A stretch of DNA of 48,442 nucleotides from Erysipelotrichaceae bacterium 7770_A6 (lineage in GTDB: Bacteria; Bacillota_I; Bacilli_A; Erysipelotrichales; Erysipelotrichaceae): contig QQXM01000019.1 in the NCBI GenBank assembly GCA_014610835.1, positions 1 to 48,442 on the forward strand, read 5' to 3'. Of this stretch, positions 36,885 through 43,672 are shown piece after piece. The notes below the pieces were generated by a model that ran no database searches, was not told the origin of the DNA, and saw nothing but the letters and a program-made list of their open reading frames with translations. Each line of letters starts with the position of its first letter. Position 1 is the stretch's first letter. The position numbers were made by a program, and so were the translations under genes.

Positions 36885-36913
36885 ATAATACATATTCACA
36901 AAATTTCATAACA

Positions 36914-36945
36914 TTCCAAAAAAAAGAGGGAAATTTTCCCTCTTT
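36914..36945 (-). terminator. Terminator of the rnf operon
   Basis: On the minus strand GAGGGAAAATTTCCCTC with flanking A/T pairs, followed by eight T. Confidence 0.9.
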
Positions 36946-36952
36946 TGAATGC

Positions 36953-37240
36953 TTACGCATTTTGAACATGTTCAGCAAGATACTTTTTGATCTGTTCACG
37001 TGCTTCTGGTTTACATGGTTTACAGCCTTCTGGTGTAGCTTCGCCATTGACAAGTTTGTCAGCCATAGCTGCACATCCAGGGTTTCCACAACCACCACAG
37101 TTATATCCAGGAAGCATTGCCAATACATCATCTACTCTAGTATCTGGTTCAACATAGAACTTCTTTGATGCAAAGCCTAATACTGCACCAAGTACAGCAC
37201 CAAGTACAAGCATCAATACGAATGCTTTAACAATTGCCAT
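36953..37240 (-). CDS. rnfB: Minimal RnfB: membrane anchor and one [4Fe-4S] domain
   Basis: 95 residues from MAIVKAFV, whose ATG has GAGG 6 nt upstream. One membrane helix (6-23) is followed by C48-x2-C51-x4-C56-x16-C73, the exact RnfB cluster spacing, and a further C76. Usual RnfB proteins continue with two or more ferredoxin-type clusters; here the gene stops and a terminator follows at once, so the short form is natural, not a window or frameshift effect. In Rnf, RnfB takes electrons from ferredoxin. It is last in the operon and overlaps the small Cys protein gene by 14 bp. Confidence 0.88.
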   Translation of the reverse strand: MAIVKAFVLMLVLGAVLGAVLGFASKKFYVEPDTRVDDVLAMLPGYNCGGCGNPGCAAMADKLVNGEATPEGCKPCKPEAREQIKKYLAEHVQNA

Positions 37241-37427
37241 TTTCTGCCTCTTTCTTCTTTTCATATGTTCCACGCATTGCACAGTCTTTCATTCCACATG
37301 CACTGCAGTCCGGCGTGAGATTTTCACAACCTTCTGGAACAGGAGTTTTTTTATTCAATCTAAGCAAAACAACATTCAACAGGAATAGTCCAGCAGCCAA
37401 TACAACTGCGACTATAATTCTTACCAT
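37227..37427 (-). CDS. Small Cys-rich membrane protein in the rnf operon
   Basis: 66 residues starting MVRIIVAVVL, one nucleotide after the rnfA stop. One membrane helix (3-23) is followed by C34-x6-C41-x2-C44-x4-C49 and a terminal Cys66. The Cx2Cx4C spacing and the PEGC string are shared with the RnfB next door. It therefore looks like an additional cluster-bearing anchor, perhaps an RnfB-derived duplicate. I do not recognise a named family. Operon position suggests an Rnf subunit or assembly factor. Confidence 0.75.
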   Translation of the reverse strand: MVRIIVAVVLAAGLFLLNVVLLRLNKKTPVPEGCENLTPDCSACGMKDCAMRGTYEKKKEAENGNC

Positions 37428-37428
37428 C

Positions 37429-38001
37429 TTATACGAGACCTGCAAGAGCTGAGAAAGCGATTGCCATGATACCAGCTACTACGAAAGCAATTGGATTACC
37501 CTGGAATGACTTTGGAACATTGTTTTGATTTAATCTTTCTCTGATTGTTGCGAAGATGACAAGCATTAACATGAAACCTGCTGGAGTAGCAATGGAGTTA
37601 ACCATTGTTTCAACAAGTGTGTATCCCTTTGTAATGTTATCCTGAGCAACATAGAGAACTGTACAGTTTGTTGTGATTAATGGTAAATAGATACCTAACT
37701 GCTTATAAAGAGCAGGTGAGAATTTCTTTACGAACAATTCTACGAACTGTACGAAAGCTGCAATCAATAGAATGAATGTAATTAACTGCATATATTCCAG
37801 ATTTAATGGAACTAATACGAAGTAATACAAGAAGTAAGACAATACAGATGCACCAAAGATAACGAAGATAACAGCTGCGCCCATACCAATTGCAGAATCA
37901 AGATGTGTAGATACACCCATGAATGGGCACATACCTAAGAACTTAGTTAATACAATGTTGTTGATCAACATTGCGGAAATAAATAACGCTAGAATGTTCA
38001 T
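37429..38001 (-). CDS. rnfA: Rnf complex subunit RnfA
   Basis: 190 residues, six membrane segments. Conserved LINNIVLTKFLGMCPFMGVS near the N-terminus and TTNCTVLYVAQ in the second half contain the two cysteines that form the RnfA/RnfE membrane iron-sulfur site. Starts 2 nt after rnfE. Confidence 0.96.
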   Translation of the reverse strand: MNILALFISAMLINNIVLTKFLGMCPFMGVSTHLDSAIGMGAAVIFVIFGASVLSYFLYYFVLVPLNLEYMQLITFILLIAAFVQFVELFVKKFSPALYKQLGIYLPLITTNCTVLYVAQDNITKGYTLVETMVNSIATPAGFMLMLVIFATIRERLNQNNVPKSFQGNPIAFVVAGIMAIAFSALAGLV

Positions 38002-38003
38002 AC

Positions 38004-38738
38004 TTAAGCTGCCTCCTTAGCTGCCTTTTCTTTAGCAAGCTGTGCTGCTTTTGCCTTTGCTGCGGCAACTTTTGCTGCCTTTTCAGCTGCTGCTTCAGCT
38101 TCAGCAAGTTTGTTCTTGTATAAAGCAATTAATGCAGCTAATACCGCAAATGTGAAGAATGCGCCTGTTTCACCAGTAAACATTGGAATAATGAACTGTT
38201 CAGGAATCAATCTGATTGAGAAAATAACTGCACTTCCAGCAAATGGGTTTGTTAACTCAAGAACACCTGTACCAAGAACCTGTCTAATCAATGACATTAC
38301 AAGTAATGACAATGTGTAAGATAAGCCCATCATCAATCCATCCTTAGCAGAATCTTTGACATTATGGTTACATGCATATGCTTCAGCACGACCAAGAATA
38401 ATACAGTTAACAACAATCAATGACAAGAATGCACCTAATGCTGTATACAGATCTACTGCATATGCATTCAAGAACATCTGTAAGATTGTTACTAATGTCG
38501 CAATAACTACAATGTATACAGGAATATGGATATCATCTGGAGTAATTGGAGCGATTAAGCTGACTACAACGTTACTTAATACCAATACGAAGATAACACC
38601 AGCACCCATACCAAGTGCGTTATTAATAGAAGTTGAAATAGCTAATGTTGAACAGATACCAAGGTATAAACCAAATACTGGGTTATCTGTTAGCATCTTA
38701 GAGAAGAAGCCTTGCTTTTTTGTTTTCTTTTCACTCAT
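38004..38738 (-). CDS. rnfE: Rnf complex subunit RnfE with a long Ala/Lys helical tail
   Basis: 244 residues. Six membrane segments with DNPVFGLYLGICSTLAIS and VNCIILGRAEAYA, homologous to RnfA and carrying the paired cysteines. The last ~40 residues, after LIALYKNKL, are almost only Ala, Lys and Glu and would form a charged helix in the cytoplasm, an uncommon extension. 13 nt after rnfG. Confidence 0.95.
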   Translation of the reverse strand: MSEKKTKKQGFFSKMLTDNPVFGLYLGICSTLAISTSINNALGMGAGVIFVLVLSNVVVSLIAPITPDDIHIPVYIVVIATLVTILQMFLNAYAVDLYTALGAFLSLIVVNCIILGRAEAYACNHNVKDSAKDGLMMGLSYTLSLLVMSLIRQVLGTGVLELTNPFAGSAVIFSIRLIPEQFIIPMFTGETGAFFTFAVLAALIALYKNKLAEAEAAAEKAAKVAAAKAKAAQLAKEKAAKEAA

Positions 38739-38751
38739 GTTTCTCTCCTCC

Positions 38752-39900
38752 TTACTTGCTAGATGCTAAAGCAGCATTGATCATTGTCTTAACTGCTTCA
38801 CTTGTAAATGTAGCGCCACTGAGATCATCGACTTCATCAGCACTAGATACACCTTCTAAGCTAGATGCATCTTCAAACCAGTCGTCACCAACGCCATCAC
38901 CATTATCATCACCCTTGAGGTCTTTAACGGATGCAACCTTGCCATCCTTGACTTCAATTGTTGCTGTTAATTCACCAGCGAATCCTTCTGCCTTGCAGGC
39001 AAAAGTTCCATCGCCATTATCGCTACATGCATTAGCAGTAGCATTTGCAGAATCTAATGCAGCCTGAATCATGCTCTTAACTGCGTTAGATGTAACTGTA
39101 GCACCTGTCATAGCGTCGATTTCATCAGCGCTGGATACACCTTCTAAGCTAGAAGTATCTGTGAACCAGTCATCACCAACACCATCACCATCATCATCGC
39201 CCTTAAGATCCTTAACACTGACAACCTTGCCATCCTTGATTTCGATTGTTGCTGTTAATTCACCTGAGAATCCAGTCACCTTGCATCCAAATGTGCCGTC
39301 ACCATTGTCTGTACATGATGCATCAGACTTCGCACTTGCATTTTCAGCAGCACTTGCAGCTGCATCTGCATCAAAATCGATACCCTGGATTTCGTTATAA
39401 ACACTTTCAGCTTCTGTAACTGCTGCGCTGACAGCCTTAGAAGTTACAGTTGCACCAGAAATAATAGGAACAGCATCTGTTGAAGTTAAACCAATGACCT
39501 GATTTGCATAGTCATCTTTGAATAACTTGTCACCCTTACCAGCAGTTTCAGAGTTTGATAAGCCTTCGTAGCCAACAATGTTTCCATCGTTGTCGAATGC
39601 AATCGCAAACTTGAATCCATCTGAAGAGTATCCAGTGTTATGAAGTGTGAAGACATATCCTTCATCCTTTGCTTCATAAACACCATCAATGAGTTCTGTT
39701 TCATCTGTTTTATACTTGTCTGTTACGTCAGTAAATTCACCATTTGGGAAGAAGTTTTCAAGAGTTGATTGTACTTGTTTTAATGCGTTATCAGCAATGA
39801 CTGGAGCTGTAACGGCATTGACTGCAGATAACAGTAAACCTGCACAAGCACTGACAACACCTAGAAGAACTGTTTTATACATACTTGAATTCTTATCCAT
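38752..39900 (-). CDS. rnfG: Rnf complex subunit RnfG with three FMN-binding domains
   Basis: 382 residues, about twice the usual length. A membrane anchor (about 10-32) is followed by a normal FMN-binding domain with SGAT at 148-151. Two further tandem domains (about 195-287 and 291-382) carry TGAT at 265-268 and SGAT at 361-364. The threonines T151, T268 and T364 are candidate attachment sites for covalent FMN, made by ApbE, whose gene is in the divergent unit. Each extra domain also has a CX9C pair (C196/C206, C292/C302) and an aspartate-rich GDDxGDGVGDDW loop. In Rnf, RnfG passes electrons on the outside face. Confidence 0.95.
   Translation of the reverse strand: MDKNSSMYKTVLLGVVSACAGLLLSAVNAVTAPVIADNALKQVQSTLENFFPNGEFTDVTDKYKTDETELIDGVYEAKDEGYVFTLHNTGYSSDGFKFAIAFDNDGNIVGYEGLSNSETAGKGDKLFKDDYANQVIGLTSTDAVPIISGATVTSKAVSAAVTEAESVYNEIQGIDFDADAAASAAENASAKSDASCTDNGDGTFGCKVTGFSGELTATIEIKDGKVVSVKDLKGDDDGDGVGDDWFTDTSSLEGVSSADEIDAMTGATVTSNAVKSMIQAALDSANATANACSDNGDGTFACKAEGFAGELTATIEVKDGKVASVKDLKGDDNGDGVGDDWFEDASSLEGVSSADEVDDLSGATFTSEAVKTMINAALASSK
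38755..39318 (-). repeat. Tandem duplication inside rnfG
   Basis: The DNA for residues 195-287 (39040-39318) and 291-382 (38755-39030) is repeated with a 96-codon offset. Many blocks are identical at protein level (GELTATIE, DGDGVGDDWF, SSLEGVSSADE), indicating a fairly recent duplication. Confidence 0.85.
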
Positions 39901-39913
39901 GTTGTCTATCTCC

Positions 39914-41056
39914 TTACTCTACATTTACAGTTTCAACGACTGCTGTTTCTTGATTTGCAACGCTAGCACTTTCTGCTTCAGGATTCTTTAAGAAACCACC
40001 AACAAGAAGTGTGATAACTAATACAACCGCAGAAACAATACAAACTTTACGCTGAATTGTTTTTGCATCCTTAATCTGAGAACCATCACATAGCTTATCA
40101 ATTGCTGGAGTAAGCATGTTCATTAACAAGATAGAGAATAAAGCTCCATCTGGTAAAGATGCTTTCCATCTAATCAATAATGTTAAGCAAGCTGCACAAA
40201 TCGCAAATAAAATCTTGCCAGGAATAGATACTGGTGTTGTCACTGGGTCAGTAATCATAAATACGCCACAGAACAATACACCACCAACTAATAAGTTGAA
40301 GATTGCAAATTCAACACCTGCACCATGGATCAAACCTGTAATCAAAGATACAACGAATACAGTTACAAAATATGTAACAGATAATCTTGGATCAATGACT
40401 TTCATATAAATGAGCCAAGCACATAAGATGATCAATAGCAATGCACAGCTGCCACCGATAACAGTTGCATAGTTACCAAGGATCATAGAGCCAAATCCGC
40501 CTAGATCACTGACAACACCAGAAACAACAGTCTGATTGGAAGCCCATCCCTGTGCTGACATTGATGTTAATGGAGTAGCACCGGATAATACTTCACTTGT
40601 AACCTTAGCATCAGCACTTGCACCAAAGCTGTTCATAATCAATGCTTCGCCAAATGCTGCAGGGTTAAAGATATTCTGACCAAATCCACCAAATACAAGC
40701 TTGCCGAATACAATTGCAATCACAGTTGAAACGAAAATTGCATAGTAGCTGACATCAATCTTTGTAATTAATACAATGATCATGCCTGTAACCCAGCCAT
40801 AAGATCTAGAAACATCCTTCATGATATTCTTAGATCCCATAATCTTAAAATAAATAGCTTCTGTTAGTACTGCAGCTACAACTGCACATACACCCATCAA
40901 AATCACTCTTAAACCATATGCAAATGAGAATCTCATTCCATACCATGCTGCTGAGAATACAAATACACAAAGAAGTGCAATTGTAAGAACATGCATAATA
41001 TGTGTTGTAGATTGTTCATTACGATAGTTTGGAGAAGGTTTAAATGTAAACTTCAT
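39914..41056 (-). CDS. rnfD: Rnf complex subunit RnfD
   Basis: 380 residues, about nine membrane segments. The flavinylation motif SGATPLTS lies near residue 159, where FMN is joined to threonine. FGGFGQNIFNPAAFGEAL is typical. A short extension after the last helix (NPEAESASVANQETAVVETV) is charged. Starts 2 nt after rnfC. Confidence 0.96.
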   Translation of the reverse strand: MKFTFKPSPNYRNEQSTTHIMHVLTIALLCVFVFSAAWYGMRFSFAYGLRVILMGVCAVVAAVLTEAIYFKIMGSKNIMKDVSRSYGWVTGMIIVLITKIDVSYYAIFVSTVIAIVFGKLVFGGFGQNIFNPAAFGEALIMNSFGASADAKVTSEVLSGATPLTSMSAQGWASNQTVVSGVVSDLGGFGSMILGNYATVIGGSCALLLIILCAWLIYMKVIDPRLSVTYFVTVFVVSLITGLIHGAGVEFAIFNLLVGGVLFCGVFMITDPVTTPVSIPGKILFAICAACLTLLIRWKASLPDGALFSILLMNMLTPAIDKLCDGSQIKDAKTIQRKVCIVSAVVLVITLLVGGFLKNPEAESASVANQETAVVETVNVE

Positions 41057-41058
41057 AC

Positions 41059-42357
41059 TTATTTCTTACCTCCCTGTAATCGAATGAAATTCTTTGCACG
41101 TCTGACATTTTCAGTAACCGCAATCTTAGATGGACAAATATATGTACATAGACCACATTCAATACAATCCATAACATGTAATTTATTCAATGTAGCTTCA
41201 TCTTTGCTCTTACCAGCAGCCGCAATACGAACTGGCTGTAATCCAGATGGACATGTTGTTGTACATCTGCCGCAACGTAAGCAAGCAACTTCATCCTCTT
41301 CCTTATTGATTAATACTGTTAAACCATTATTCTGTGGTGCAATTACAAATGCATCATTTGGAATTGTTCTACCCATCATTGGTCCACCAGCAATCAATAA
41401 TACGTTATCAACACCTTCCTTATATCCACCAACAGCTTCAATAATTTCGTGTGCCTTTGTACCTACTGGAACATATACGTTCTTTGGATCCTTTAAAGCA
41501 TCTCCACTAACAGTTACATACTTATGTGTAATAGGCATGCCATTGTCAATTGCATTACCCAATGCAATTGCTGTAGAAGCATTGTTAAGAATCATACCAG
41601 CTTCAATAGGAAGCATGTTATATCTCTTACCTGTTAGTTCATATACAAGTGTACGTTCCCAGCCCATTGGGTAAATATTTGGAACTGTACGAATTTCAAT
41701 TGGAGTTCCTTCGAATGTCTTCTTAAGATCTTCAATCTGCTTCTTCTTGTCTTCCTTGATTACAATGCAACCCTTCTTAGCCTTAGAAAGCTTAAATAAA
41801 GCCAATGTACCTGTCTTTAGAAGACTTAGGTTTTCTTCAATGTTCTTGTAGTCAGCTGTTAAGTATGGTTCACATTCAACAGCGTTTACCGCAAATAAAT
41901 CAACATTTTCAGGCTTTAAATATTTCACGTACGTAGGGAAGCCTGCGCCGCCTAAGCCGAGCATACCTGCATTCTTAACGAACTCAAGTAGTTCTTCCCA
42001 AGTAGCTTTTTCATAATCGAAAGCTGCAAAAGCTCTAACAGCAGTGTGCTTGTGATCGTTTTGAATCTTCAAATGGTCTGCTTGAGTCATTGAAGATGTC
42101 ATGAATTTTTCTACTGCAGTAACAGTACCTGATACTGGAGAGAAAATTGGCAGAAAGAATCGATCGTTTCTTTCAGCTATTTTTGTGCCGACTTTAACTT
42201 CATCACCAACTTGTACACATGGAGTGCATGGCGCATTACCATTTACAAGTGGAATATAGACATAATCAGGGTCAATGGACTTTAATACTTCTTTATCCAT
42301 TGTCAGATCTTTATGTCCATTTAGGTGATAATGCATCGGACCTGTAAATAATGACAT
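41059..42357 (-). CDS. rnfC: Rnf complex subunit RnfC
   Basis: 432 residues. The N-terminal barrel-like domain is followed by the flavin/NADH region GMLGLGGAGFPTYVKY. Two [4Fe-4S] clusters lie at the end: CLRCGRCTTTCPSG and CIECGLCTYICPSK. RnfC is the NAD(H)-facing subunit. AGGAGGAG precedes the ATG, and it is first in the operon. Confidence 0.97.
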   Translation of the reverse strand: MSLFTGPMHYHLNGHKDLTMDKEVLKSIDPDYVYIPLVNGNAPCTPCVQVGDEVKVGTKIAERNDRFFLPIFSPVSGTVTAVEKFMTSSMTQADHLKIQNDHKHTAVRAFAAFDYEKATWEELLEFVKNAGMLGLGGAGFPTYVKYLKPENVDLFAVNAVECEPYLTADYKNIEENLSLLKTGTLALFKLSKAKKGCIVIKEDKKKQIEDLKKTFEGTPIEIRTVPNIYPMGWERTLVYELTGKRYNMLPIEAGMILNNASTAIALGNAIDNGMPITHKYVTVSGDALKDPKNVYVPVGTKAHEIIEAVGGYKEGVDNVLLIAGGPMMGRTIPNDAFVIAPQNNGLTVLINKEEDEVACLRCGRCTTTCPSGLQPVRIAAAGKSKDEATLNKLHVMDCIECGLCTYICPSKIAVTENVRRAKNFIRLQGGKK

Positions 42358-42535: not shown

Positions 42536-43672
42536 ATGAAAAGAAAAATATTAGCGAAAATAGGATTAGCACTCACACTTTGTGCTGGATGTGCTACAAA
42601 ACCGGAATCTTCTAAGAAAGTATCAGATTCCTATGCAAACACTTCTCTAACAGAAGTATTTGACACAATGTATTCATTCAAAGAATACTCTGCAGATCAC
42701 GACTTATGTGTATCTCATTTCAAAGCAAGTGAGAAACTATTACAGAACTATACACAGCTGTTTGATATCTACAACAATTATGATGGCATCAACAATCTAA
42801 AAACAATCAATGACAACGCTGGAAAACAGCCAGTTGAAGTTGATCAGGTCATCATTGATATGTTAAAGATGGTAAAACAGTTCTATGACTACAGTGATGG
42901 AGAATTTGACATCACAATTGGTTCCTTATTAAAAGTATGGCACAACTATCGAGAAGAAGGCATCAAGCTCAATGAAGAAGGAAAACTTGGAAAACTCCCA
43001 GGCAAAGAAGAGCTTGAAGAAGCAAGCAAACATAAAGGATGGGATAAAGTACAGATTGATGAAGAAAACAAAACTGTATTTATTACAGATCCAGATGTTT
43101 CTTTAGATGTTGGCGGTATCGCAAAAGGATATGGTGCAGAACTTGCTGCACAGACGATGATGGATAATGGTATGGAATGCGGCATATTAAATGTCGGAAG
43201 AAACATTCGACTCATCGGCAAGAAGGAAAATGAAAACTGGACAGTTGGCATTACAGATCCAGATGGAGATCCTGAAGGAAAATTTCCAAATGGTCTTGTT
43301 GTACTTTCCTTAAAGGAAGCAAATAGTATTGTTACAAGTGGTGACTATGAACGTTACTACAAGGCAGAAGACGGAAATATATATCCACATATCGTAGATC
43401 CTTCTACAATGTACCCTGCTCGTCTATATCGTTCTGTCACAATTATTACAGAGGATTCTGCCGCAGCAGACTGTCTATCTACAGCGTTATTTACTTTAGA
43501 TATTGATGAAGGAAAGAAACTTCTCGAAACTTACAGTAAAGCATCCGGTAAAAAATGTAATGCAATTTGGATTACAGAAGATGAAAAGACACAAGGACAC
43601 GAAGGAAAGAAAGTTGGAAATTATACTGTCATCTATACAGATGGTATTGAGGAGGACATCCTTTGGAATTAA
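42536..43672 (+). CDS. apbE: FAD:protein FMN transferase (ApbE), lipoprotein
   Basis: 378 residues. A signal peptide ends in the lipobox LCAGC, so it is membrane-anchored outside. ApbE motifs: DGEFDITIGSLL, DVSLDVGGIAKGYGAELAA, VTSGDYERYY and PHIVDPSTMYPA. Using FAD, it joins FMN to threonine in [S/T]GAT motifs. The adjacent divergent rnf operon encodes the substrates RnfG and RnfD. Its last codons overlap the TTG start of the metal-exporter gene by 10 bp. Confidence 0.96.
   Translation: MKRKILAKIGLALTLCAGCATKPESSKKVSDSYANTSLTEVFDTMYSFKEYSADHDLCVSHFKASEKLLQNYTQLFDIYNNYDGINNLKTINDNAGKQPVEVDQVIIDMLKMVKQFYDYSDGEFDITIGSLLKVWHNYREEGIKLNEEGKLGKLPGKEELEEASKHKGWDKVQIDEENKTVFITDPDVSLDVGGIAKGYGAELAAQTMMDNGMECGILNVGRNIRLIGKKENENWTVGITDPDGDPEGKFPNGLVVLSLKEANSIVTSGDYERYYKAEDGNIYPHIVDPSTMYPARLYRSVTIITEDSAAADCLSTALFTLDIDEGKKLLETYSKASGKKCNAIWITEDEKTQGHEGKKVGNYTVIYTDGIEEDILWN

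Follow-up and report, generated by a model that had tools for sequence, protein, structure and literature searches.

The window (the whole 48,442-nucleotide stretch analyzed here) carries all six rnf genes together on the minus strand, in the order rnfC-D-G-E-A-small-B, with a small gene for a Cys-rich membrane protein between rnfA and rnfB (Table 1). These genes specify the Rnf complex, a main energy-conserving enzyme of anaerobes, many gut bacteria included, which transfers electrons and pumps sodium or protons. From rnfA through rnfB the genes overlap or almost touch (the small gene and rnfB share 14 nt), a spacing as in genes that would be read on a single transcript. A terminator had been predicted right after rnfB, and a hairpin followed by a U-rich tract was indeed found there (-20.4 kcal/mol; z -3.75; none of 200 shuffled sequences folded as well), while it was not among the entries of a simple terminator scan of the window. 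Each FMN-binding domain of RnfG has an [ST]GAT flavinylation-like motif (residues 148, 265 and 361), and the length of the RnfG frame varies widely among relatives.

Table 1. Genes and features of the rnf region of the window.
Feature	Coordinates	Strand	Remarks
Intrinsic-terminator-like hairpin directly 3' of rnfB	36915..36952	-	fold of 36900-36970
rnfB, minimal form	36953..37240	-	TM helix (model residues 2-27) + one PF04060 [4Fe-4S] domain, 95 aa
Small Cys-rich one-helix membrane protein, Rnf companion	37227..37427	-	66 aa, Cx6Cx2Cx4C
rnfA	37429..38001	-	TIGR01943 above cut-off; AE1 [2Fe-2S] ligands Cys25, Cys113
rnfE	38004..38738	-	AE1 ligands Cys29, Cys112
rnfG	38752..39900	-	PF04205, 3 stretches; three FMN-binding domains
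rnfD	39914..41056	-	PF03116; SGAT at 158
rnfC	41059..42357	-	SLBB/Nuo51 domains; two CxxCxxCxxxC clusters
apbE, flavin transferase, divergent neighbour upstream of rnf operon	42536..43672	+	PF02424

RnfB was originally read as an anchor and one Cys cluster with nothing beyond, and this description held. Its 95 codons (36956-37240, stop excluded) encode one TM helix and one PF04060 domain (49.9 bits; cut-off 23) with the cysteines Cys48-x2-Cys51-x4-Cys56-x16-Cys73, and the sequence contains no CxxCxxCxxxC ferredoxin-type motif. TIGR01944 scored 60.3 bits, below its cut-off of 68.7, and the C-terminal ferredoxin-type clusters are lacking. The AlphaFold2 model of the short RnfB was confident (pLDDT 90), and Foldseek matched its cluster domain (TM-score about 0.5) to the N-terminal domain of the corrinoid/iron-sulfur protein large subunit, which has the PF04060-type [4Fe-4S] fold in common with the short RnfB but differs in protein and partner. 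Searched against the PDB, a profile of 28 short RnfB sequences matched 7zc6_B (residues 8-89), 9eri_B (10-96) and 8ahx_B (1-76), which are RnfB of Clostridium tetanomorphum, Acetobacterium woodii and A. vinelandii, respectively. The N-terminal TM helix and shuttle domain (B8 or FdI) of the A. woodii and C. tetanomorphum proteins match the short RnfB end to end, whereas the ferredoxin-docking part that follows after about residue 96 (A. woodii B1-B7, C. tetanomorphum FdII-III) is missing from the window RnfB. Residues 30-100 of A. woodii RnfB are the mobile B8 domain, whose one [4Fe-4S] cluster reduces the [2Fe-2S] cluster of RnfA/E; ferredoxin is presumed to dock at the distal B1-B2 region, and Cys mutations in B8 or AE1 abolish function (PMC11889175). 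The short RnfB thus retains the indispensable last shuttle without the docking part.

In one related family a tandem duplicate of the B8/PF04060 domain serves as RnfB (frames of 183-194 aa; L203, L204, L411 and L419), the duplicate B8 replacing B8 plus the ferredoxin domains. Across 170 operons with a short or tandem RnfB, the AE1 cysteines C25 and C113 of RnfA and C112 of RnfE were present in all, and C29 of RnfE in 169 (the remaining one reads X). No position of RnfA or RnfE distinguished the two RnfB kinds at >80% each.

A minimal RnfB is not in itself new. The Thermotoga maritima RnfB, with a mass of 10.56 kDa, is predicted to hold one cluster; when purified, its complex accepts electrons from ferredoxin of C. 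pasteurianum and moves Na+ (PMC7414866). That a minimal RnfB functions with ferredoxin, as this paper and Vitt et al. (PMC9588780) describe, rules out novelty on this point. The window RnfB, with 95 aa and four PF04060 cysteines, fits the same description. As in the window, the T. maritima RnfB of about 10 kDa, with its single predicted [4Fe-4S] cluster, accompanies an otherwise complete rnfCDGEA; unlike in the window, the order given by its authors, rnfCDGEAB, has no gene between rnfA and rnfB (PMC7414866). The original prediction inferred from the missing clusters that either a split entry site or a different donor is called for. That need falls away, since ferredoxin serves the purified T. 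maritima complex, whose RnfB is just as short, and direct reduction by ferredoxin becomes the default reading. PFOR, a 2[4Fe-4S] ferredoxin and [FeFe] hydrogenase subunits are encoded in the window genome, and in this organism ferredoxin would most likely reduce the short RnfB directly.

We found no full-length rnfB elsewhere in this genome (98% complete) by PF04060 search and no detached RnfB-like ferredoxin protein with a full-length RnfB query, whose matches were ordinary Fer4 proteins; the original account of RnfB is consistent with both results. The sole other PF04060 protein of the genome (L002:997-2673) joins PF04060 to a hydrogenase-like domain and ends in a PAS-like sensor tail; it is presumably a sensory [FeFe] hydrogenase, the hydrogenase and PAS names being read from its sequence. 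Named plasmid records returned no match to the short RnfB.

The small gene (37230-37427, with its stop reaching 37227) encodes a protein whose cysteines are spaced Cys34-x6-Cys41-x2-Cys44-x4-Cys49 and whose AlphaFold2 model (pLDDT 80) has helices at residues 2-27 and 50-63. Because basic residues come after the helix, the sequence suggests that the Cys loop would lie on the cytoplasmic side. In an alignment of 69 diverse relatives only C41, C44 and C49 were invariant, with N25 and P31 in at least 90% of rows; the window's C34 was missing from many. A juxtamembrane N-x-K-T-P-x-P motif was strongly conserved. The shortest forms had 35-38 aa, and in one family of small genomes (L226, L235, L237, L238 and L242) the product of the rnfA-rnfB gap is reduced to a helix with a CxxC-type tail, 35-56 aa in all. 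No Pfam or NCBIfam family claims the protein, and PDB sequences gave no match at E<=10.

In a family sample of 195 genomes, 136 had the small protein and 149 had PF04060. A scan of named genomes yielded 80 loci (of 185 candidates), and at every one of them the small gene follows rnfA and precedes a short rnfB, a count that is ascertained in that the loci were retrieved with the small protein itself as query. They span Solobacterium, Bulleidia, Lactimicrobium, Holdemanella, Faecalitalea and Holdemania to Acholeplasmatales and Anaeroplasmataceae. Such constancy excludes chance or a frameshift, and the 66-residue protein just upstream of rnfB is, as had been proposed, part of the rnf operon.

Among 395 genomes of the class, 202 had an Rnf-type RnfB, 194 of them short or tandem and 8 full-length (a division made by frame length, with A2 matches weaker than 1e-9 set aside as hydrogenase-type in 10 genomes). 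The small protein was present in 173 of the 194 genomes with a short or tandem RnfB, in 0 of 8 with a full-length one and in 5 of 193 without RnfB. A broader small-protein profile recovered 11 of the 21 misses, and in 4 more a Cys-containing ORF of 35-56 aa was seen by eye in the rnfA-rnfB gap, so that 6 of 194 remain. Three genomes had the small protein and no RnfB match (L446, L447 and L455, in G388, G435 and G370); two of these are only 85-86% complete.

In a tree of RnfA plus RnfE (184 rows, 409 columns; 17 loci with broken or missing RnfA/RnfE frames omitted, and two outgroup rows, L443 and L445, labelled full-length by hand here and in the second tree below), the 170 short- or tandem-RnfB operons tested from the class all formed one clade with support of 100. 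Outside it fell 14 full-length-RnfB operons, of which Clostridia, Fusobacteria and Bacteroidota contributed six. A second tree method (57 rows, the reduced tree also omitting five long-branch rows) gave the same split. The shortening of RnfB and the gain of the small gene map to one branch and thus to a single event, which demonstrates association and not cause. The small gene tracks one Rnf clade through the whole class Bacilli, and it is apparently undescribed: in the open full-text literature we found no paper that treats a small Cys protein encoded in rnf operons and none on minimal RnfB in Erysipelotrichia.

The comparison of rnf operons bore out the pairing only in part. The small gene lies in cis in 125 of the 170 operons of the clade, but not in the other 45, which rules out that small protein and short RnfB always go together inside one operon. 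Of 29 genomes without the gene in cis that were searched, 18 had a match elsewhere, at 19 places; the gene that follows is of dCMP-deaminase type at 14 of these and of UDG type at 4, and 1 has a different setting. This odd pairing with a dCMP-deaminase- or UDG-type partner is conserved (L329-L346, L448, L452, L454, L456 and L446). The 69-row alignment (A4) includes relocated copies and hence is no independent evidence for them; A4 matches in G437 (a 467-aa frame), G267 (TM only), G208 (internal stops) and G407 (FeoB-associated-like) were not counted. The deaminase gene directly follows rnfB in two operons (L413 and L430) of a related family, which hints at the route of relocation. Second rnf operons that have a short RnfB but lack the small gene in cis group on a branch of their own (L269, L276, L279, L280, L281 and L322), in genomes of two families that have another rnf operon too, and a second copy of the small gene lies downstream of a tandem rnfB (L203:2151-2348).

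In sequence the small protein resembles the FeoB-associated family PF12669, to which profile comparison shows a distant kinship. PF12669 itself scored 17 bits on the window's protein, below its cut-off of 27, and matched 26 of the 69 relatives at E<=1 (best 1.2e-4). When the small-protein profile was aligned by hhalign with a set of 15 PF12669 proteins, the probability was 94-95, and 0 of 100 decoys, made by shuffling the tail with the helix unchanged, scored as high for either profile; in reciprocal decoy comparisons 1 of 60 and 0 of 60 were as good. Like the small protein, FeoB-associated PF12669 proteins have one N-terminal helix, basic residues and a short Cys loop, and several members contain C-x2-C-x4-C. 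The Cys motif of this family is said to be one commonly associated with iron binding (PMC8749426). The two differ in genomic partner, which is FeoB in 7 of the 10 loci checked for the PF12669 set and rnfA/rnfB (or a deaminase or UDG gene in trans) for the small protein, and the latter has its own strongly conserved N-x-K-T-P-x-P motif. Some PF12669-type proteins adjoin an FtsK/SpoIIIE gene rather than feoB (L384, L392 and L396).

NqrM (PF04400) offers a parallel in place and proposed job. It also has one helix and a Cys loop, its gene accompanies those of a related ion pump close to apbE, and it is the maturation factor of the NQR cluster homologous to the RnfA/E cluster (PMC12174285). Its sequence kinship with the small protein did not exceed chance (12 of 60 and 13 of 60 decoys as good, and 23-24 of 100 in a larger test), and the PF04400 profile had no match at the rnf loci when 30 genomes were searched. 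Homology to NqrM failed both the decoy tests and the profile search; a by-eye likeness to the small-protein motif (K/R-T-P-x4-C-x2-L) occurs in one alphaproteobacterial NqrM. The C-x2-C-x4-C core also has the spacing of the first three RnfB ligands, and the small protein matched the RnfB profile weakly (2 of 60 decoys as good in this test for an RnfB paralogue). The string PEGC, which had been read as common to both proteins, is present in the window RnfB, but among the 28 short RnfB rows it occurs in the window row only; on the RnfB side it was dismissed as coincidence.

We favor, with confidence slightly better than even, a minimal-RnfB Rnf complex in which ferredoxin is most likely the direct donor and the small protein acts as an accessory that delivers iron or an Fe-S unit and was recruited from the FeoB-associated family. 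Soluble ferredoxin would reduce the single [4Fe-4S] cluster of the short RnfB, whose mobile domain (the counterpart of A. woodii B8 and C. tetanomorphum FdI) would pass the electron to the RnfA-RnfE [2Fe-2S] cluster, and from there the path would be the standard one through RnfG, RnfD and RnfC to NAD. The small protein would bind and deliver iron or an Fe-S unit during assembly of the RnfA/E or RnfB cluster, a job parallel to that of NqrM for Na+-NQR, with the FeoB-associated Cys-rich family, not NqrM, as its source. Iron delivery is its most likely function given the kinship with PF12669, the conservation of three and not four cysteines, the tolerated shrinkage and relocation, the strict genome-level tie to Rnf and the neighbouring gene for ApbE, another maturation enzyme. 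Against this stands that the small protein accompanies the short RnfB and not the full-length one, which maturation of RnfA/E alone would not predict (although gain of the small gene and shortening of RnfB, on one branch, count as one event), and that complexes whose RnfB is full-length do without it. Members also score below the PF12669 cut-off, and the function of PF12669 is itself unproven (PMC8749426).

The original prediction was that the two proteins may act together. The main rival develops this idea, making the small protein a permanent subunit whose Cys cluster relays electrons from ferredoxin to the short RnfB in place of the lost clusters, and we regard it as rather unlikely. The genome-level tie to the short RnfB, the shared branch of gain and shortening, and the RnfB-like ligand spacing with its weak profile match all speak for such a relay; yet the T. 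maritima complex works with a minimal RnfB in an operon given as rnfCDGEAB (PMC7414866), Cys34 is missing in many lineages, some forms of 35-38 aa have a CxxC-type tail only, and the gene has moved out of the operon on several occasions to a place beside dCMP-deaminase or UDG genes. The tie between the two proteins stands, but joint action is disfavored by the unconserved fourth cysteine, the repeated exit from the operon and the FeoB-associated nearest kin. We hold it improbable that the small protein is a structural or stabilizing subunit, its helix packing beside RnfB/RnfG and its cysteines binding a structural metal or sensing iron: the N-x-K-T-P-x-P motif is not obviously needed by a simple iron carrier and the gene adjoins both rnfA and rnfB, but relocation and the extreme shrinkage in some lineages fit such a role poorly. 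A donor other than ferredoxin, such as flavodoxin or a hydrogenase subunit, would explain the missing docking clusters and is very unlikely, given that the minimal T. maritima RnfB takes ferredoxin electrons and that ferredoxin and PFOR are encoded here. An rnfB truncated by a sequencing error, or an rnfB pseudogene, is a practically negligible possibility even for a window that is one contig of a 233-contig assembly, as it is refuted by conservation of the same length class and neighbours across family and class, with a terminator-like hairpin right behind the gene and a confident structure model.

What is new here is the small-protein companion and the single RnfA/E clade of short-RnfB operons. 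We know of no account of how the buried [2Fe-2S] cluster of Rnf is built, and a search of the open literature turned up no Rnf-specific maturation factor. A small gene that tracks one Rnf clade across a class is a concrete candidate for such a factor. Tentatively, and at somewhat less than even confidence, the small protein may be the first dedicated Rnf assembly factor, derived from the FeoB-associated family, gained on the branch on which RnfB lost its docking half and kept across Bacilli, in trans after leaving the operon. The class-wide minimal RnfB also provides many simple complexes for testing the role of the ferredoxin-docking clusters. If the assembly-factor reading is true, Rnf and NQR would each have enlisted a small membrane protein for this task, the two being unrelated to each other.
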